From assembly GCA_947501625.1 (NCBI GenBank), contig CANMWN010000001.1, positions 693,319 through 757,318 on the forward strand: a DNA stretch of 64,000 nt, written 5' to 3'. This DNA is from an uncultured Flavobacteriaceae bacterium (GTDB taxonomy: Bacteria; Bacteroidota; Bacteroidia; Flavobacteriales; Flavobacteriaceae). Made by a program: the position numbers and the translations under genes. This document shows, one piece after another, positions 14,204 to 23,175 of the stretch (position 1 is its first letter; each line of letters starts with the position of its first letter). Under the pieces are notes generated by a model. The model was given only the letters and a program-made list of their open reading frames with translations, was not told where the DNA came from and made no database searches.

Positions 14204-14613
14204 AAAAGTTATCTCATAAAAGGCATATTGTAAAAACAATAACTTGGAGGTTTGTTGGAACATTAGACACAATACTTCTATCTTGGTTAATATCTGGGAA
14301 TCCTTTATTTGGGCTAAAAATTGGTTTTGCTGAAGTAATAACAAAAATGATATTGTATTATTTTCATGAAAGAGCTTGGTTTAAATTTAATATTGATAAT
14401 AGTAAGAAAAGGCATTTTGTAAAAACAATTACATGGCGATTTATAGGAACTTTAGACACTATGTTTTTGGCTTGGCTTATAACAGGAAATCCATTAACAG
14501 GTTTAAAAATTGGATTTGCTGAAGTCATAACAAAAATGGTATTATATTATCTACATGAAAGGGCATGGTATAAAATAGATTATGGATTAGACAATCGTAG
14601 AAGATTTAAATAA
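14200..14613 (+). CDS. Tandem DUF2061 membrane protein
   Basis: A 137-residue protein made of two copies of the DUF2061 domain, each about 60 residues. The shared pattern is KRHxVKTITWRFxGTLDT, a hydrophobic segment (LSWLISGNP / LAWLITGNP), then GLKIGFAEVITKM and YYxHERAW. Each copy has hydrophobic stretches that could span the membrane. The two copies repeat with a 63-residue, 189-base period and remain similar in DNA. The domain has no established biochemical role, but it is frequently found with sulfate-activation genes, as here between cysQ and cysC. It overlaps cysQ by four bases and ends on the first base of the cysC ATG, which indicates tight coupling. Confidence 0.85.
   Translation: MKKLSHKRHIVKTITWRFVGTLDTILLSWLISGNPLFGLKIGFAEVITKMILYYFHERAWFKFNIDNSKKRHFVKTITWRFIGTLDTMFLAWLITGNPLTGLKIGFAEVITKMVLYYLHERAWYKIDYGLDNRRRFK
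14221..14598 (+). repeat. Tandem 189-base coding repeat (two DUF2061 units)
   Basis: Two imperfect copies, about 14221-14409 and 14410-14598, begin with AGGCAT and diverge mostly at third codon positions. This is an internal gene duplication, not a mobile element. Confidence 0.8.
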
Positions 14614-15215
14614 TGGAAAAAAATATTGTTCCCCATTCGTATCAAATTTCTGTTCAAGATAGGCAAAAATTAAATAACCAAAATTCTTTTTTAATTTGGT
14701 TTACTGGACTTTCAGGATCAGGGAAGTCAACAATAGCTAATGCTGTTGAAAAAGAGTTATTTAATAATGATGTAAAAACGTATACATTAGATGGAGATAA
14801 TATTAGAAGTGGAATCAATAGTGATTTAACTTTTGCGCCTGAAGATAGAACAGAAAATATTAGAAGAATTGCTGAAATCGCAAATTTGATGATAGATGCT
14901 GGATTAGTTACATTAGCCGCATTTGTTTCACCTTATAAAAAAGACCGTGATAATATTAGAAGTATTGTTAAAGATGTTAACTTTGTAGAAGTTTATATTA
15001 ACACCAGTGTTGAGGAGTGTGAAAGAAGAGATGTAAAGGGGCTTTATAAAAAAGCAAGAGCAGGTGAAATAAAAAATATGACAGGAATTTCAGCGCCTTA
15101 CGAAGCGCCAGAAAATCCGGATGTAGAAATTAATACTGAAACAGAAACAGTAGATCAAGCAGTAAAAAAAATAATTGATTATATAAAACCTAAATTACAA
15201 CTCAATTATGAGTAA
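14613..15215 (+). CDS. cysC: Adenylyl-sulfate kinase
   Basis: A 200-residue P-loop kinase that phosphorylates adenosine-5'-phosphosulfate (APS) to PAPS. The Walker A motif GLSGSGKST is at residues 32-40, DGDNIRSGINSDLTF binds APS, and AAFVSPYKKDRD and KGLYKKARAGEIKNMTGI are family signatures. Length and domain are those of the stand-alone kinase. It overlaps cysD by eight bases. Confidence 0.96.
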   Translation: MEKNIVPHSYQISVQDRQKLNNQNSFLIWFTGLSGSGKSTIANAVEKELFNNDVKTYTLDGDNIRSGINSDLTFAPEDRTENIRRIAEIANLMIDAGLVTLAAFVSPYKKDRDNIRSIVKDVNFVEVYINTSVEECERRDVKGLYKKARAGEIKNMTGISAPYEAPENPDVEINTETETVDQAVKKIIDYIKPKLQLNYE

Positions 15216-16113
15216 ATATTATTTAAATTATTTAGACGAATTAGAAAGTGAAGCAATCTTTATTCTACGTGAAGTTTGGGCACAATTTCAAAACCCAGTA
15301 ATTCTATTTTCGGGAGGTAAGGATTCAATTCTTGTAACTCATTTAGCAAAGAAAGCATTTTATCCTGCTAAAATTCCTTTTCCTCTTATGCATGTTGATA
15401 CTGGGCATAATTTTCCGGAAACAATTAAATTCAGGGATGATATTATTAAAGAATTAGGTGTTGAATTAATTGTTGGTTCTGTCCAAGAATCGATTGATGA
15501 AGGTAGAGTAGCAGAAGAGAAAGGTAAAAATGCGACAAGAAATGCTTTACAAATAACTACACTTTTAGATGCAATAGAATCTAATAAAATTGATTGTGCG
15601 ATTGGAGGAGGTCGTAGAGATGAAGAAAAAGCGAGAGCCAAAGAACGTTTTTTCTCTCATCGCGATGATTTTGGTCAATGGGATCCAAAAAACCAAAGAC
15701 CAGAATTATGGAATCTTTTTAATGGCAAGCACTTTCAAGGAGAACATTTTAGAGCATTTCCAATAAGTAATTGGACTGAAATGGATGTTTGGAATTATAT
15801 TAAAAGAGAAAATATTGCTATTCCATCATTATATTTTGCACATGAAAGAGAAGTGGTGAGAAGAGAAGGAACTTGGATTCCGAATTCAGAGTTTTTGATT
15901 TTAGAAGATCATGAAGAAGTAGTTGTTAAAAAAATACGGTTTAGAACTTTAGGAGATATAACAATTACTGGAGGAGATGAATCAGATGCTGATACTCTTG
16001 AAAAAATTGCTGCAGAAGTAGCCGGAATGAGAAATACTGAAAGAGGAAATAGAAGCGATGATAAGCGATCTGAATCAGCAATGGAAGACAGAAAACGTCA
16101 AGGTTATTTTTAA
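15208..16113 (+). CDS. cysD: Sulfate adenylyltransferase subunit 2
   Basis: A 301-residue ATP pyrophosphatase-type subunit that makes APS from ATP and sulfate together with CysN. The PP-loop SGGKDS is at residues 35-40, and DTGHNFPETIKFRD, GGGRRDEEKARAKER and RRREGTWIPNSEF-type segments are typical of CysD. It starts inside the end of cysC and is followed by cysN 14 bases later. No CysH-type PAPS reductase is nearby, and the sequence is clearly CysD rather than CysH. Confidence 0.96.
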   Translation: MSKYYLNYLDELESEAIFILREVWAQFQNPVILFSGGKDSILVTHLAKKAFYPAKIPFPLMHVDTGHNFPETIKFRDDIIKELGVELIVGSVQESIDEGRVAEEKGKNATRNALQITTLLDAIESNKIDCAIGGGRRDEEKARAKERFFSHRDDFGQWDPKNQRPELWNLFNGKHFQGEHFRAFPISNWTEMDVWNYIKRENIAIPSLYFAHEREVVRREGTWIPNSEFLILEDHEEVVVKKIRFRTLGDITITGGDESDADTLEKIAAEVAGMRNTERGNRSDDKRSESAMEDRKRQGYF

Positions 16114-16127
16114 AAATAGAAAAAATT

Positions 16128-17378
16128 ATGATAGATAATAATCAATTATTAAGATTTACAACAGCAGGAAGTGTTGATGATGGTAAAAGTACCCTTATTG
16201 GGCGTTTATTATATGATTCTAAATCTATTTTTGAAGATCAATTGGCTTCAATAGAAAATACTAGTAAAAAGAAAGGGCATGATGGAGTAGACTTAGCACT
16301 TTTTACCGATGGTTTACGTGATGAACGTGAGCAAGGAATTACCATTGATGTTGCTTATAGATACTTTACAACCCCAAAACGTAAATTTATTATTGCTGAT
16401 ACACCAGGACACATTCAATATACAAGAAATATGGTTACTGGTGCATCAACTGCAAATGTAGCTACAATATTAATTGATGCAAGACATGGAGTGATTGAGC
16501 AAACTAAAAGGCATGCATTTATTGCATCGTTACTTCAAATTCCTCATATTATTGTATGTGTTAATAAAATGGATTTAGTAGACTTTTCTGAAGAAGTTTT
16601 TAATAAAATTGTAGCTGAATTTGAAAAAATATCTTCTAAAATGCTTGTTAAAGATGTTCGTTTCATTCCTATGAGTGCGTTATTGGGAGATAACGTTGTT
16701 AATAGATCTGAAAATATGCCTTGGTATTTAGGAGCTCCAATGTTGCATACGCTAGAAACTATGCATATTGGAAGCGATACCAATAAAGTAGATGCTCGTT
16801 TCCCTGTGCAAACAGTAATAAGACCACAAAGTGATTCTCATAGAGATTATAGAGGTTATGCTGGGAGAGTTGCAAGTGGAATTTTTAGAGTAGGTGATGA
16901 GGTCACAATTATGCCTTCTGGATTTACTTCAAAAATTAAAACCATAGATTTACATGATGAATCGTTAGAAGAAGCACATGCACCTATGTCGGTTTCTATT
17001 ACATTAGAAGACGATATTGATATAAGTAGAGGAGATATGATTGTGCGTTCTAATAATAAACCAGATGCTTCTCAAGATATTGAAGTTATGTTATGTTGGT
17101 TAAATAATAATCCTGCAAGACCAAGAGCTAAATATACAATTAAACACACTTCTAACGATCAAAAAGCGATGATTAAAGAGGTTGTATATAAAATTGATAT
17201 TAATACACTGGAAAGAGTTAATGACGATTCTTTAAATATGAATGATATATGTAAAGTTAAAATTCGCACTACAAAACCTCTTATGATAGATTCTTATAGA
17301 GAGAATCGGACAACAGGAAGTGTCATTTTGGTAGATGATGCTACCAATGAAACAGTAGCGGCAGGAATGATAGTATAA
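16128..17378 (+). CDS. cysN: Sulfate adenylyltransferase subunit 1 (GTPase)
   Basis: A 416-residue EF-Tu-like GTPase that drives APS synthesis. The G1 motif GSVDDGKST is at residues 14-22, with DTPGH (G3) and NKMDLVD (G4), then beta-barrel domains. It is about 60 residues shorter than E. coli CysN and ends after the second barrel, without a fused CysC domain, in line with the separate cysC gene. The 29-base gap to pseB suggests that transcription continues into the pseudaminic-acid genes. Confidence 0.95.
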   Translation: MIDNNQLLRFTTAGSVDDGKSTLIGRLLYDSKSIFEDQLASIENTSKKKGHDGVDLALFTDGLRDEREQGITIDVAYRYFTTPKRKFIIADTPGHIQYTRNMVTGASTANVATILIDARHGVIEQTKRHAFIASLLQIPHIIVCVNKMDLVDFSEEVFNKIVAEFEKISSKMLVKDVRFIPMSALLGDNVVNRSENMPWYLGAPMLHTLETMHIGSDTNKVDARFPVQTVIRPQSDSHRDYRGYAGRVASGIFRVGDEVTIMPSGFTSKIKTIDLHDESLEEAHAPMSVSITLEDDIDISRGDMIVRSNNKPDASQDIEVMLCWLNNNPARPRAKYTIKHTSNDQKAMIKEVVYKIDINTLERVNDDSLNMNDICKVKIRTTKPLMIDSYRENRTTGSVILVDDATNETVAAGMIV

Positions 17379-17407: not shown

Positions 17408-18424
17408 ATGTTAGATTTAAATAATAAATCAATTTTAATAACAGGAGGTACAGGTTCTTTTGGTAAAATGTTTACAAAAATTATTTTAACAAAATATTCA
17501 AACGTAAAACGTTTAGTAATTTTATCAAGAGATGAGCAAAAGCATTTTCAAATGGCTATGGAATTCCCAGAAAGTAAATATCCATCCATTCGTTATTTTA
17601 TTGGTGATGTTAGAGATAAAAAAAGATTAGTTAGAGCTTTTGAAGGTATTGATATAGTAATCCATGCTGCAGCAATGAAACATGTTCATTTAGCCGAATA
17701 TAATCCAATGGAATGTATTAAGACAAATGTTCTTGGAGCAGAAAATGTTATTCAAGCAGCTATTGAAGCAAAAGTAGAAAATGTTGTTGCGCTTTCAACT
17801 GATAAGGCAGCGGCACCAATAAATTTATATGGAGCAACTAAGTTAACTTCCGATAAATTATTTATTGCAGCAAATAATATTAAAGGAAATAGAGCGATTA
17901 AATTTTCAGTTGTTCGTTATGGTAATGTTATGGGTTCTAATGGTTCGGTAATGCCTTTCTTTATCAATAAAAGAAAAGAAGGTGTATTACCAATTACTGA
18001 CAAACGAATGACTCGTTTCAATATATCTTTAGAAGATGGTTGTGAGATGGTATTTCATGCAATTGACAAAGCATGGGGCGGTGAAATATTTGTTCCAAAA
18101 ATACCATCCTATAAAGTTGTAGATGTCGCAACAGCTATTTGCCCTAAATGTGAGCAAAAAGAAGTAGGGATTAGACCAGGAGAAAAAATTCATGAAGAAA
18201 TGATTACATCTTCGGATTCTTTTACGACTTATGATTTAGGAAAATATTATGCAATTTTACCTCAAACACCTACATTTGATTTAGCCGAATATATAAAACA
18301 CTTTAATGCAAAAATTGTTCCACAAGGATTTAACTACAATTCGGGCGAAAATGATGAGTGGGAAACAGTTGAAAGTTTGCACGATTTGATAATTAAAAAC
18401 GTTGATCCTAATTTTACAGTATAA
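17408..18424 (+). CDS. pseB: UDP-N-acetylglucosamine 4,6-dehydratase (inverting)
   Basis: A 338-residue short-chain dehydrogenase for the first step of CMP-pseudaminic acid synthesis: UDP-GlcNAc to UDP-2-acetamido-2,6-dideoxy-beta-L-arabino-4-hexulose. The NADP site TGGTGSFGK is at residues 12-20. Residues Asp132, Lys133 and Tyr141 (in STDKAAAPINLYGATK) fall at the same numbers as the catalytic triad I recall for the Helicobacter enzyme FlaA1/PseB. HAAAMKHVHLAEYNP is also typical. It is followed after four bases by pseC. Confidence 0.94.
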   Translation: MLDLNNKSILITGGTGSFGKMFTKIILTKYSNVKRLVILSRDEQKHFQMAMEFPESKYPSIRYFIGDVRDKKRLVRAFEGIDIVIHAAAMKHVHLAEYNPMECIKTNVLGAENVIQAAIEAKVENVVALSTDKAAAPINLYGATKLTSDKLFIAANNIKGNRAIKFSVVRYGNVMGSNGSVMPFFINKRKEGVLPITDKRMTRFNISLEDGCEMVFHAIDKAWGGEIFVPKIPSYKVVDVATAICPKCEQKEVGIRPGEKIHEEMITSSDSFTTYDLGKYYAILPQTPTFDLAEYIKHFNAKIVPQGFNYNSGENDEWETVESLHDLIIKNVDPNFTV

Positions 18425-18428
18425 ATAA

Positions 18429-19580
18429 ATGACAAAATTTTCTATTCCTTACGGTAGACAATCAATTACACAAGAAGATATTGATGCTGTTGTTAATACA
18501 TTACAGGCGGATTTTTTAACACAAGGACCAAAGGTTGCCGCTTTCGAAGAAGCATTTGCTAAATATATTGGTGTAAAATATGCGGTAGCAGTTAATAATG
18601 CGACTTCAGGTCTACATATTGCAGTTGCGTCATTAGGGTTAAAAGAAAACGAAAGAGTTATTACAACGCCAATAACTTTTGCAGCTTCTGCAAACTGTAT
18701 ACGTTATTGTGGTGGAGAAGTCTGGTTTGCCGATATAAATAAAAATACTTATTTATTATCTTTAGAAAGTACACGAAAACTTATTGAAAGCAAACCAAAA
18801 GGTTTTTTTAAAGGGATTATCCCTGTAGATTTTGCAGGACTACCAGTTAATTTAGAAGGGTTTAGAGAATTGGCTCAAGAGCATGATTTATGGATCATTG
18901 AAGACGCTTGTCATGCACCAGGAGGATATTTTATAGATTCACAACAAGAAAAACAATTTTGTGGTAATGGGAATTATGCAGATATTGGTGTCTTTTCATT
19001 CCATCCAGTAAAACATATTGCTTGTGGTGAAGGAGGAATGCTGACAACAAATTCTAAAAAAATATATGATAAGTTATTACTTTTGCGTTCACATGGTATA
19101 ACTAAAGAAAACATGAAACAAAATCATGGAGGTTGGTTTTATGAAATGCAAGAATTAGGGTTTAATTATCGTTTAACTGATATTCAATCAGCTTTAGGAA
19201 TAACACAATTGGCTAAAAATAGAGAAAGTGTTCTTAAAAGAAATAAAATTGCAGCCAAATATAAAGAAGCATTTAAAAATAAAGTGAAATTTCAATCTTT
19301 ACCAAATGGAAGATATAATGCTCATCATTTATTTGTAATTGAAGTAGAAAAGCGTAAAGAATTATATGACTTTTTAAAAAACAATGGAGTTTATGCTCAA
19401 ATTCATTACATACCTGTACATACTTTACCGTACTATGAACAAATTGGCTATGAAAATGCCGATTTAACAAATGCTGAAAATTATTACAAACATTGTATTA
19501 GTTTACCAATGTACCCAACCCTCAAAGACAATGAACAAGAATATGTTATTGAAAAAGTTTTAAATTTTGTTAATGCTTAA
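18429..19580 (+). CDS. pseC: UDP-4-amino-4,6-dideoxy-N-acetyl-beta-L-altrosamine transaminase
   Basis: A 383-residue PLP enzyme of the DegT/DnrJ/EryC1 family that aminates C4 of the PseB product. PLP binds through Lys195 in FSFHPVKHIACGEGGM, with the ring-stacking or charge-relay segment at IIEDACHAPG (Glu158-Asp159). The N-terminus (IPYGRQSITQEDIDAV) and the C-terminal segment YAQIHYIPVHTLPYYE match PseC. The order pseB-pseC-pseF-pseG-pseI is the usual pathway order apart from the missing pseH. It overlaps pseF by eight bases. Confidence 0.94.
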   Translation: MTKFSIPYGRQSITQEDIDAVVNTLQADFLTQGPKVAAFEEAFAKYIGVKYAVAVNNATSGLHIAVASLGLKENERVITTPITFAASANCIRYCGGEVWFADINKNTYLLSLESTRKLIESKPKGFFKGIIPVDFAGLPVNLEGFRELAQEHDLWIIEDACHAPGGYFIDSQQEKQFCGNGNYADIGVFSFHPVKHIACGEGGMLTTNSKKIYDKLLLLRSHGITKENMKQNHGGWFYEMQELGFNYRLTDIQSALGITQLAKNRESVLKRNKIAAKYKEAFKNKVKFQSLPNGRYNAHHLFVIEVEKRKELYDFLKNNGVYAQIHYIPVHTLPYYEQIGYENADLTNAENYYKHCISLPMYPTLKDNEQEYVIEKVLNFVNA

Positions 19581-20277
19581 ACTTTGTATCATACCAGCAA
19601 GAGGCGGCTCTAAGAGAATTCAAAAAAAAAACATAAAAATTTTTTTAGATAAACCCATTATTGCTTATTCAATAGAAATAGCATTAAGTTCTAATTTATT
19701 TGATGAAGTAATGGTAACTACTGATGATATAGAAATTGCTGAGGTTGCAAAAAAATATGGAGCGAAAGTTCCTTTTTTAAGAAGTAAAAAAAATGCAAAT
19801 GATTTTGCTACTACAATAGATGTAATTAATGAAGTAGTACATGAATACAAAAAGTCTGGAAAGCATTTTGAATACGCTTGTTGCATTTACCCTACAGCTC
19901 CATTTGTCAATGAAATACTATTAAAAAGAGGTGAAAAATTAATTCTAGCAAATAATTTTGATTGTGTTTTTCCAGTTATGGAATTTAGTTTTCCAACTCA
20001 AAGAGCATTAAAAATAGATGATTCTCATAAAATGACTCTTATTCAACCTGAATATCAAAATACTAGATCTCAAGATCTAGAAAAAACCTATCATGATGCA
20101 GGACAATTTTATTGGTTTAATATTGAAAAGTTGTTGCAAAAAGGGAAATTATGGACAGATAATACAGGTGTAATTCCAATAAAACAAACTGAAGGTCAAG
20201 ATATTGACACCCTTGAGGATTGGAAGTTGGCAGAAATTAAATATAAATTATTGCATGAAAAAAAAACTATTATTTAG
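19573..20277 (+). CDS. pseF: Pseudaminic acid cytidylyltransferase
   Basis: A 234-residue CMP-sugar synthetase that activates pseudaminic acid with CTP. The signature IIPARGGSKRIQKKN is at the N-terminus, followed by ATTIDVINEVV, CCIYPTAPFV and YHDAGQFYW. I chose ATG at 19573 because the protein then begins MLKLCIIPARGG; a TTG six bases upstream is also in frame. Codons 17-20 contain a run of ten A (19622-19631), a possible slippage site. The gene overlaps pseC by eight bases and its end overlaps the next gene by 23. Confidence 0.93.
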   Translation: MLKLCIIPARGGSKRIQKKNIKIFLDKPIIAYSIEIALSSNLFDEVMVTTDDIEIAEVAKKYGAKVPFLRSKKNANDFATTIDVINEVVHEYKKSGKHFEYACCIYPTAPFVNEILLKRGEKLILANNFDCVFPVMEFSFPTQRALKIDDSHKMTLIQPEYQNTRSQDLEKTYHDAGQFYWFNIEKLLQKGKLWTDNTGVIPIKQTEGQDIDTLEDWKLAEIKYKLLHEKKTII

Positions 20278-22135
20278 AGCAGATGGAAATTCAGAAACAG
20301 GGTTAGGGCATTTATATCGTCTTTTTGCATTAGTAGAAATGTATAAAACAGAATGTGAATACACTTTTGTTACTAAAGAAAATACTACTTTAAATATAAT
20401 TCCTAAAAAGTATCCCTTAGTATTAATACCTGAAATAATTAATTACCAAGAGGAACCTAATTGGCTTAAAAATAGGTTTGATTCAGATGAACACATCATT
20501 ATTGCTGACGGATATAATTTTGATTCAAATTATCAAAAGAATATCAAAAATTTTGGATATCAGTTAATTTATATTGATGACTTAACTACAACACATATGT
20601 TTGCTGATATTGTTGTAAATCATTCACCTTTTGTAACTAAAAATGATTTTTCAGTAAATGAATATACAAAACTGGCATTAGGTACCGATTATGCAGTTTT
20701 AAGGCCATCTTTTTTGAATGCTGCAAAACAGCAAAGAGAGGTAAAAAAAATAGACGTTGCTTTTGTTTGTTTTGGAGGGTCAGATAATTATAATCTATCT
20801 CAGTTAGCTGTAAAGGCATTATTACATTTCACAAAGATAAAAAAAATATATGTGGTATTAGGCGCTGCCCATCAACACAATAATATTTTTAAAATTGTTG
20901 AAGAAAATCCTAAAGTGGTTATACAACAAAATTTGAATGAAAAAGAGTTAATAGGAATCATGTATCAATGTAATTTTGCAATTGTACCAACAAGCACAAT
21001 TTTATATGAATTATGCTGTGTTAAAATGCCAATTTTAGGAGGATATTACGTTAAAAATCAAGAATTAATTTATAAAGGTTTTCTGGAAAAAGGGGCAATT
21101 TTTAATGGTGGAAATTTTAGTAATTATAACCTAAATACATTTAAAAATGTTATTAAGAATATATTTGCAAAAGAAAATTTTTCTGATCAAATCAAAGCGC
21201 AACAAAATTTATTTGATTCATTTATAAAAGAGCGATTCCTTAAATTATTAAAACCTAAAAGTGATTTAACTATAGGGGTATTATCTAGTGGAAGGCTAGG
21301 ATTAGACTCACTTAAGAAATTAAATAAAACTCAAAATATTATATTTGTTTTTACCGACAGCAATTCAATAGAGATTGTTGAATACTGTAATAAAAAAAAG
21401 ATTCCATTATTTAAAGGAAATCCTAGAAATGGAAATGCATATTCATTTATTAAAAACTATGATGTTGATGTAATAATTTCGGTTAATTACCTTTTTTTAA
21501 TAGAAGAGGATATTATCAAATATCCAAAAAAATTAATCTTTAATATTCATGGATCTTTATTACCTAAGTATAGAGGGAGGACACCACACGTATGGGCAAT
21601 AATTAATGGAGAAACAAAAACTGGAATTACCGCTCATGAAATTTCGATAGGTTGTGATACAGGTAAAATAATAAAACAGATTGAAGTCCCTATTTTACCA
21701 GAAGATACTGGTGCCATGATATTAAAAAAGTTTGAAGAATTGTATTTTGATTTAATTACGAATGTCATTAATCAGCTTGAGGAAAACAAACTCATTTTTA
21801 CTACTCAAAATGAACAAGAAGCTACTTACTTTGGTAAAAGAACTCCAAAAGATGGTTATATTAATTGGTCTTGGAATAGTAAACGAATAAAAAATTGGAT
21901 TAGGGCTCAATCCTACCCATATCCAGGAGCTTATACATTTTATAATGGAGTAAAAGTAATCATTGATAAAGTTTCTATTGTAAATACAATATCAATGGAT
22001 GCTTCGAAATTTGAAAATGGTACGATTTTGCAAGTAACCCCAAAAATTAAAATTAAAACAAATAATGGTGCAATTATAGTTGAAAAGTTTAGAGATAAAT
22101 TAAGTATCTTTGAGGTTAAAAAATTATTTAAATGA
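20255..22135 (+). CDS. Fusion: PseG-type UDP-sugar hydrolase plus formyltransferase
   Basis: A 626-residue two-domain enzyme. Residues 1 to about 330 resemble PseG, which removes UDP from UDP-2,4-diacetamido-2,4,6-trideoxy-beta-L-altropyranose: the N-terminal GLGHLYR holds the probable catalytic His19, and VAFVCFGGSDNYNLS and PTSTILYELCCVKMP follow. Residues about 338-626 are a formyltransferase like methionyl-tRNA or UDP-sugar formyltransferases: the catalytic triad is Asn430 and His432 (NIHGSLLPKYRG) and Asp468 (GCDTGKI), and a C-terminal barrel-like region follows. It would probably use N10-formyl-tetrahydrofolate. No PseH acetyltransferase is in the cluster, so the fused domain may put a formyl group on the C4 amine instead. 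ATG at 20255 is preferred over an upstream in-frame TTG because MKKKLLFRADG is the usual PseG start. Confidence 0.85.
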   Translation: MKKKLLFRADGNSETGLGHLYRLFALVEMYKTECEYTFVTKENTTLNIIPKKYPLVLIPEIINYQEEPNWLKNRFDSDEHIIIADGYNFDSNYQKNIKNFGYQLIYIDDLTTTHMFADIVVNHSPFVTKNDFSVNEYTKLALGTDYAVLRPSFLNAAKQQREVKKIDVAFVCFGGSDNYNLSQLAVKALLHFTKIKKIYVVLGAAHQHNNIFKIVEENPKVVIQQNLNEKELIGIMYQCNFAIVPTSTILYELCCVKMPILGGYYVKNQELIYKGFLEKGAIFNGGNFSNYNLNTFKNVIKNIFAKENFSDQIKAQQNLFDSFIKERFLKLLKPKSDLTIGVLSSGRLGLDSLKKLNKTQNIIFVFTDSNSIEIVEYCNKKKIPLFKGNPRNGNAYSFIKNYDVDVIISVNYLFLIEEDIIKYPKKLIFNIHGSLLPKYRGRTPHVWAIINGETKTGITAHEISIGCDTGKIIKQIEVPILPEDTGAMILKKFEELYFDLITNVINQLEENKLIFTTQNEQEATYFGKRTPKDGYINWSWNSKRIKNWIRAQSYPYPGAYTFYNGVKVIIDKVSIVNTISMDASKFENGTILQVTPKIKIKTNNGAIIVEKFRDKLSIFEVKKLFK

Positions 22136-23175
22136 GAATTGCAAATTTTAAAATAGGAGCCGACAATCCTTGTTTTATTATAGCAGAATTATCTGCCAAT
22201 CATAATGGTGATTTAAGCATTGCTATAGAAACTATTAGGGCTGCAAAAAGAGCTGGAGCAGATGCAATTAAACTTCAGACCTATACCCCAGAAACATTAA
22301 CGATTGACTGTAATAATGATTATTTCAAGATTGATGGAGGGACTCTTTGGGATGGGAAAACCCTATACGAGTTATATGACGAAGCTTACACACCATGGGA
22401 ATGGCATAAGCAACTATTTGATATTGCTAAAGAAGAAGGTTTAATTTGTTTTTCTTCTCCATTTGATAAAACTGCTGTAGATTTTTTAGAAGATTTAGAC
22501 GTTCCAGCCTATAAAATAGCCTCTTTTGAGATACAAGATATTCCATTAATTGAATATACAGCAGCAAAAGGAAAGCCAATTATCATGTCAACTGGTATCG
22601 CAGATGAAGAAGATATTGCATTGGCCGTAAGAACATGTAAAGATGTAGGTAATAATGAAATTGTTTTATTAAAATGTACCTCATCTTATCCTGCTCCATT
22701 AGAACTAGCAAACTTAAATACAATAAAAGACTTAAAAACTAGGTTTAAAGTTGAAGTTGGATTTTCTGACCACACATATGGTCATATAGCACCTGTTGTT
22801 GCCTTAACCCTTGGTGCTAAAGTTATTGAAAAGCATTTTATTTTAAATAAGGAAATCGGAGGTCCTGATTCAGATTTTTCATTAGATGAAAATGAGTTTA
22901 AACAGATGGTTAGTGCTGTAAGAGATGCAGAAAAATTATTAGGTAAAATTTCTTATGAAATACCTGAAAAGGTTGTGAAAAACAGAAAATTTGCACGTTC
23001 ATTGTTTGTAGTGAAAAATGTAAAAAGAGGAGATATTGTTACACAACAAAATATACGTTCAATAAGACCAGGTTATGGCTTACACCCAAAACATTATAAT
23101 GAGGTTATAGGGAAGTCATTTACTCAAGATGTTATTATTGGAACACCTTTAAGTTTAAATATGATTAAGGAATAA
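22132..23175 (+). CDS. pseI: Pseudaminic acid synthase
   Basis: A 347-residue NeuB-family enzyme that condenses the 6-deoxy-altrose derivative with phosphoenolpyruvate to give pseudaminic acid. The barrel domain has IIAELSANHNGDLSIAI, DAIKLQTYTPETLT, KIASFEIQDIPLIEY and HFILNKEIGGPDSDFSL (metal and PEP sites). The last 65 residues form a SAF antifreeze-like domain (SLFVVKNVKRGDIV, RSIRPGYGL). TPETLTID and the PseI-like length separate it from NeuB proper. It overlaps the fusion gene by four bases and the next gene by one. Confidence 0.95.
   Translation: MRIANFKIGADNPCFIIAELSANHNGDLSIAIETIRAAKRAGADAIKLQTYTPETLTIDCNNDYFKIDGGTLWDGKTLYELYDEAYTPWEWHKQLFDIAKEEGLICFSSPFDKTAVDFLEDLDVPAYKIASFEIQDIPLIEYTAAKGKPIIMSTGIADEEDIALAVRTCKDVGNNEIVLLKCTSSYPAPLELANLNTIKDLKTRFKVEVGFSDHTYGHIAPVVALTLGAKVIEKHFILNKEIGGPDSDFSLDENEFKQMVSAVRDAEKLLGKISYEIPEKVVKNRKFARSLFVVKNVKRGDIVTQQNIRSIRPGYGLHPKHYNEVIGKSFTQDVIIGTPLSLNMIKE

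Follow-up and report, generated by a model that had tools for sequence, protein, structure and literature searches.

The acyl groups on bacterial sialic-acid-like sugars can shape their recognition by phages, hosts, and antibodies. During pseudaminic acid biosynthesis, UDP is removed before the synthase PseI acts. Formylation of a nucleotide-linked 4-amino sugar is carried out by ArnA, and Reimer et al. are said to have described in 2018 that Anoxybacillus kamchatkensis uses PseJ in place of PseH to formylate the product of PseC, which reportedly leads to 7-formamido pseudaminic acid. Among the flagellin glycosylation islands of Geobacillus, type II–IV strains have pse genes without pseH and some islands contain formyltransferase genes, whose role is left unassigned in the accessible part of that source (PMC5109656), while Pse5Ac7Fo has been reported from Pseudoalteromonas distincta in the accessible parts of two others (PMC3210612 and PMC7281560). 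Formylation at this step is thus known in kind, because PseJ exists and this sugar has been reported. Searches of the open-licence literature listed no paper with a PseG–formyltransferase fusion named in its title or abstract opening.

The window (i.e., the whole stretch of 64,000 nucleotides analyzed here, from an uncultured Flavobacteriaceae bacterium) carries such a fusion within a run of co-oriented forward-strand genes in the order pseB-C-F-(G-FT)-I, where FT stands for formyltransferase, and PseB, PseC, PseF, PseG, and PseI each score above their equivalog cut-off. The run starts with pseB for the inverting UDP-GlcNAc 4,6-dehydratase (17408–18424; TIGR03589, 505 bits, cut-off 407.75), followed by pseC for the aminotransferase that forms UDP-4-amino-4,6-dideoxy-L-AltNAc (18429–19580; TIGR03588, 461.7 bits, cut-off 423.5) and pseF for the CMP-pseudaminic acid synthetase (19567–20277; TIGR03584, 301.8 bits, cut-off 205.7), which overlaps the fusion gene by 23 nucleotides. 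On the other side, the start of pseI for the pseudaminic acid synthase (22132–23175; TIGR03586, 517.4 bits, cut-off 340.25) overlaps the stop of the fusion gene by 4 nucleotides. Directly 5' of pseB (14613–17378), translations read by eye resemble adenylylsulfate kinase and sulfate adenylyltransferase subunits, which suggests that the polysaccharide may be sulfated.

The fusion gene (20255–22135, forward strand) was delineated from its open reading frame, Pfam and NCBIfam profiles, and a predicted model, and runs from an ATG at 20255 to a stop codon ending at 22135 with no internal stop over 626 amino acids. Its N-terminal part passes the cut-off of the PseG profile TIGR03590 (180.2 bits versus 153.55; residues 4–272, 20264–21070), matches C. 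jejuni PseG in fold over residues 3–290 of the model, and has the GxGHxxR motif of PseG with His19 (20309–20311), which we take to be the catalytic histidine. With hardly any linker, this part passes into the FT (residues 339–626, 21269–22132, as delimited by alignment, junction, and a start-codon scan), which comprises a Formyl_trans_N domain (PF00551; residues 350–497, 21302–21745) and a Formyl_trans_C domain (PF02911; residues 530–613, 21842–22093), both above their gathering scores (94.9 versus 26.1 and 57.2 versus 21.1 bits, respectively). The Asn-His-Asp triad of formyltransferases is complete with Asn430 (21542–21544), His432 (21548–21550), and Asp468 (21656–21658), which, as counted from the printed alignment, align with N102, H104, and D140 of the E. 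coli ArnA chain, presumably the catalytic residues of that enzyme. The same motif is kept in 54 of 54 FT rows from pse clusters (52 by pattern and two by eye; FT loci mostly from the best 80 of 181). The predicted model has a pTM of 0.71 and leaves the relative placement of the domains unfixed. A first-pass annotation had already described a PseG fused to a formyltransferase with these three residues, and the exact coordinates, the two-domain FT, and the triad bear it out.

We consider it about 85% probable that the fusion combines two enzymes of a pathway in which a formyl group, rather than the usual second acetyl group, is added on the way to CMP-Pse5Ac7Fo. Observed in its favor are the domains, motifs, and gene order together with the finding of no PseH above the cut-off and an exchange of FTs and GNATs among relatives (see below). 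Which substrate, formyl donor, and product are involved, in what order the steps run, and whether the fusion brings a benefit is inferred here from family knowledge and genomic context. On this basis, PseB and PseC would generate UDP-4-amino-4,6-dideoxy-L-AltNAc, the free 4-amine of which would be formylated by the C-terminal FT domain with 10-formyl-tetrahydrofolate. The N-terminal PseG domain would then take off UDP, PseI would condense the 4-formamido sugar with phosphoenolpyruvate, and activation by PseF would yield CMP-Pse5Ac7Fo for a surface polysaccharide.

Of the other explanations, the one that survives best, though an unlikely one, is that the FT is an extra modifier of some other amine or sugar and that the 4-amine is acetylated by an unrecognized acetyltransferase encoded elsewhere in the genome. 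The first-pass annotation had reported pseB, pseC, pseF, pseG, and pseI without a PseH-type GNAT in the cluster and had proposed a search of the genome for a PseH homologue. The equivalog matches agree with its account of the cluster, and models built here for GNATs and for a protein X (see below) have no match among window open reading frames of at least 80 amino acids. In a search of the entire genome, which is 98.96% complete, the PseH profile TIGR03585 finds no homologue above its cut-off of 93.1 bits but four GNATs, the best of which reaches 50.2 bits and sits, as judged by eye, between dapF-like and mltG-like genes. The same profile has matches in 13 of 14 control genomes with one above the cut-off, i.e., the GNATs of 12 control genomes fall below it like the best one here. 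A PseH-domain model built from relatives likewise has four matches in the genome, so that generic GNATs which could serve such an acetylation are found with each of two models. Their maximum on this model is 47.3 bits, while the best score in 18 genomes with an FT-type pse cluster (window genome included) is 50.1 bits and background GNATs of genomes that do have a PseH-like domain reach 49.8 bits; these 18 genomes are weakly informative, and the seven positive controls of the model are its own rows and hence circular. On TIGR03585, two fused PseH-like domains of Flavobacteriaceae relatives reach no more than 38.0 and 33.9 bits, below its cut-off, and a first GNAT model built here gave 26 bits for the GNAT of cluster L083; this model was iterated because it had overlooked divergent GNATs. 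Since PseH-like GNATs vary and a divergent PseH could be missed, the evidence for absence of PseH is good but incomplete. For the N-acyltransferase step, no PseH was recognized and the FT occupies its place.

How this place is filled in relatives was studied in a near-unbiased draw of 397 Flavobacteriaceae genomes, 22 of which have PseG above the cut-off; a comparison with the domain architecture of other PseG fusions had been suggested in the first-pass annotation. The stretch between PseG and PseI is a PseH-like GNAT in 12 of the 22 genomes, including nine PseG-GNAT fusions, and an FT of the window type in seven, of which two are PseG-FT fusions and five have the FT as the next gene. That the fusion could couple formylation to UDP release, as the first-pass annotation has it, or channel the intermediate is a hypothesis, tempered by FT and PseG being separate genes in these five of seven FT clusters and by a predicted model that leaves the arrangement of the domains unfixed. 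The remaining three genomes have neither GNAT nor FT by these models: one (L066) encodes a protein of 321 amino acids whose C-terminal Pfam GNAT domain reaches 49.5 bits on the GNAT model built here, a second (L073) runs into a contig end, and the third is L085. By eye, SDR-like, phosphoesterase-like, and ATP-grasp-like genes occupy the slot in L085 (3481–5831) and in L253 (6639–8964). A carbamoyltransferase-like protein of ca. 560 amino acids and NodU/CmcH type, again read by eye, lies between PseG and PseI at L248 (3246–4928) and L252 (5987–7666) and is a possible third acyl choice.

A larger table of 112 genes in the hydrolase position or "slot 1" (80 PseG and 32 X), from which identical sequences and loci L141–L170 except L148 had been removed, includes 73 PseG genes with pseI nearby, and these are accompanied by FT only (23), GNAT only (36), both (four), or neither (10). 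Because most FT loci were retrieved by searching with an FT (best 80 of 181), the 22-genome count alone comes close to being unbiased. Of the 104 slot-1 genes that have pseI nearby, six are accompanied by both FT and GNAT within 3.5 kb (L077, L093, L119, L129, L134, and L246). The GNAT follows pseC or pseI in five of these, among them L077, which belongs to the seven FT clusters from the 22 genomes and has its GNAT after pseC, and is located next to slot 1 in L129, and a Treponema locus (L136) has a GNAT gene directly before the FT; an FT may therefore co-occur with an acetyltransferase in some cases. Judged from gene content, these loci and the 10 PseG genes of neither type would count against a replacement of PseH by the FT, and the former lend some weight to the idea of an extra modifier. 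The same is true of a second, small FT in five of the 36 GNAT-only PseG clusters, where an extra formylation may exist. These small FTs share their clusters with the PseH-like GNAT (L065, 8429–9109; L067, 4751–5434; L082, 4742–5890; L232; L238), belong to PF21553 in the two that were scanned (L065 and L082), have 1zgh as best PDB relative for L065, are fused to the GNAT in L082, and may formylate another position. Against an extra modifier in the window stands that its FT sits where sister clusters have a GNAT, with repeated exchange between the two.

This exchange becomes apparent from phylogenetic trees. In a tree of 84 FT rows (loci mostly from the best 80 of 181; matches below 85 bits or 180 amino acids and identical ones excluded), the pse-cluster FTs fall into a single clade that comprises 55 rows (support 97/89) and stands apart from sampled ArnA-like and other FTs. 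For 53 of these 55 rows, pseI is found near the FT, and the other two (L110 and L136) stop at a contig end. On a tree of 54 of the 80 PseG genes (rows below 200 bits or 250 amino acids excluded), the FT label changes nine times, with at least seven changes forced by well supported branches, which means that the same hydrolase has repeatedly swapped its partner. Such partner swapping is the best evidence here that FT and GNAT would serve the same step but draw on different acyl donors. Together with the tie to pseI and the lack of a recognizable PseH, it supports the earlier proposal that the FT may replace PseH to give a 7-N-formyl pseudaminic acid.

Three further observations concern individual FT loci. 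The FT of Nonlabens tegetincola (L139, 9995–10860) is split into two frames of 138 and 172 amino acids, so that either the gene is disrupted or the sequence contains an error. In two Bacillaceae loci (L140 and L148, Amphibacillus and Salimicrobium), the genes run pseB-C-(weak PseF match)-G-FT-I, and the FTs of these loci are the first branches within the pse-cluster clade as drawn. A contig filed as Chloroflexi (L106) has a run of X, FT, and pseI with an FT that groups with those of Flavobacteriales, which points to transfer or a binning error.

Alternatively, the FT might act only once UDP has been released, with the free 4-amino sugar or the nine-carbon acid as its substrate and the PseG domain hydrolyzing an unacylated UDP-sugar. 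Fusion to a hydrolase alone leaves the order of steps unfixed, but the name of TIGR03590 gives a diacylated UDP-sugar as the PseG substrate, the partners of PseG switch between FT and GNAT as expected for action at the same stage, and ArnA as well as PseJ, which reportedly uses a UDP-sugar, act on nucleotide-linked sugars, all of which makes such late formylation highly improbable.

Regarding the origin of the fusion, the closest relative of the window FT in the tree is a separately encoded FT (L069; 63% identity, support 99/94). The FT of the other PseG-FT fusion, from Flavobacteriaceae bacterium NBU2973 (L070 and L095 are one gene), falls into another group with good support, which means that the two fusions arose separately. 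The NBU2973 fusion retains the former start methionine of the FT internally; in the window fusion, this start codon is gone and residues 326–420 include no in-frame ATG, GTG, or TTG, so that the FT could hardly be made other than within the fusion. The PseG-FT fusion is a rare variant: one was found among 51 pse-clade loci (L091–L140 and L148; from the best 80 of 181, some beginning at a contig end), and by open-frame length the window stands alone among 38 genomes above the cut-off. None of 407 plasmid records with a match has one place covering 80% of the fusion query, i.e., there is no fusion there, and none of 46 pattern matches of the whole-fusion query among genome contigs was confirmed. 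An origin of the fusion in faulty assembly or sequencing can be rejected with near certainty: a single indel could indeed join pseG and FT genes that overlap by 1–13 nucleotides in the eight separate pairs read, but both halves are intact, there is no in-frame start codon at residues 326–420 where separate FTs begin, and NBU2973 provides a second, independent fusion.

The protein X mentioned above is a GNAT-fold protein of ca. 187 amino acids that replaces PseG in some clusters (L112, 9441–9998, with 24 further loci of the X alignment, and L220–L227). It stands in for PseG in 24 FT clusters (22 + 2; loci mostly from the best 80 of 181), likewise in L110, which is cut off by a contig end, and also in several clusters of the GNAT type. 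Its partner is a separate GNAT in L222, L223, and L225 and a fused GNAT in L221 and L224, and neither FT nor GNAT was found beside X in L226 and L227. X and PseG occur together in none of 156 loci at the thresholds used, and none of 16 genomes with X-FT clusters has PseG above the cut-off, five of them giving weak and partial matches that peak at 25.8 bits. The predicted model of X (mean pLDDT 95.4) has a GNAT fold with H. pylori PseH as top Foldseek match, and a fold comparison places SpeG (Z 21.4, rmsd 1.6, 162 aligned) and PseH (Z 20.9, rmsd 1.9, 165 aligned) in a tie by Z. The acetyl-CoA loop R-G/S-x-x-(L/F/Y/M) is present in 11 of 11 PseH-like GNATs and 0 of 25 X, and a looser pattern, [RQ]xxGx[GA], in four of 11 and one of 25, respectively. 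Because UDP must leave before PseI acts, X may be an unrecognized UDP-sugar hydrolase; rivaling this, it could be an odd PseH relative with the hydrolase being an unrelated gene elsewhere. A tentative generalization, which we doubt somewhat more than we trust it, is that pse clusters of Bacteroidota combine an exchangeable acyl slot (GNAT or a pse-specific ArnA-like FT that arose apart from PseJ) with a hydrolase slot (PseG or a hydrolase X without the PseH-type loop). All four pairings are seen (PseG-GNAT, PseG-FT, X-GNAT, and X-FT), three of them also as fusions, with the window providing a PseG-FT fusion. If the generalization is true, X would represent a hydrolase that uses the fold of an acetyltransferase, and the sister clusters without PseG raise the sharper question of how UDP leaves there.

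If formylation by the fusion is confirmed, a single gene slot would predict the acyl group, i.e., acetyl for a GNAT and formyl for an FT, and for many Bacteroidota this feature of the surface sugar could be deduced from sequence. The acyl domains that are naturally swapped behind one and the same PseG would also offer ready-made parts for producing formylated pseudaminic acids.

Among known systems, the N-terminal half of the fusion corresponds to C. jejuni PseG (PDB 3hbm and 3hbn) by profile, sequence, and fold, though the latter consists of 282 residues and has no second enzyme attached. For the FT, the best sequence relative in the PDB is ArnA (131 bits), the formyltransferase of a UDP-4-amino-sugar. 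The window FT is not ArnA itself, with 178.8 versus 777 bits on NF005998 and only positions 18–277 of the 649 of this profile matched; moreover, ArnA has its FT domain fused to a UDP-glucuronate decarboxylase whereas the partner here is PseG, and the ArnA-like rows sampled, e.g., from Providencia (L144), fall outside the pse-cluster clade. PseJ would share its reported function with the window FT and has the FT catalytic region in common with it, yet the PDB chains named "formyltransferase PseJ" (6ci2, 6ci4, 6ci5, and 6edk) are distant relatives that match the window FT with ca. 51 bits over ca. 86 residues. The solved PseJ chains have 192 and 217 amino acids, possibly as shortened constructs, and lack Formyl_trans_C, while the window FT is of the two-domain ArnA/Fmt type and fused to PseG. 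Orthology with PseJ was rejected given 131 bits for ArnA versus ca. 51 for PseJ and the presence of a C-terminal domain, keeping in mind that the PseJ constructs may be shortened; PseJ is not among the 50 fold-search matches listed, which excludes nothing. The accessible part of the work on Geobacillus islands contains no PseG-FT fusion (PMC5109656). Most similar in layout are the PseG-PseH fusions of Flavobacteriaceae, with hydrolase, N-acyltransferase, and then pseI, but their acyl domain is a GNAT for acetyl and that of the window an FT for formyl. What is apparently new relative to these systems is that PseG is fused to an FT, that an ArnA-like FT lineage stands in for PseJ, and that PseG exchanges its partners.
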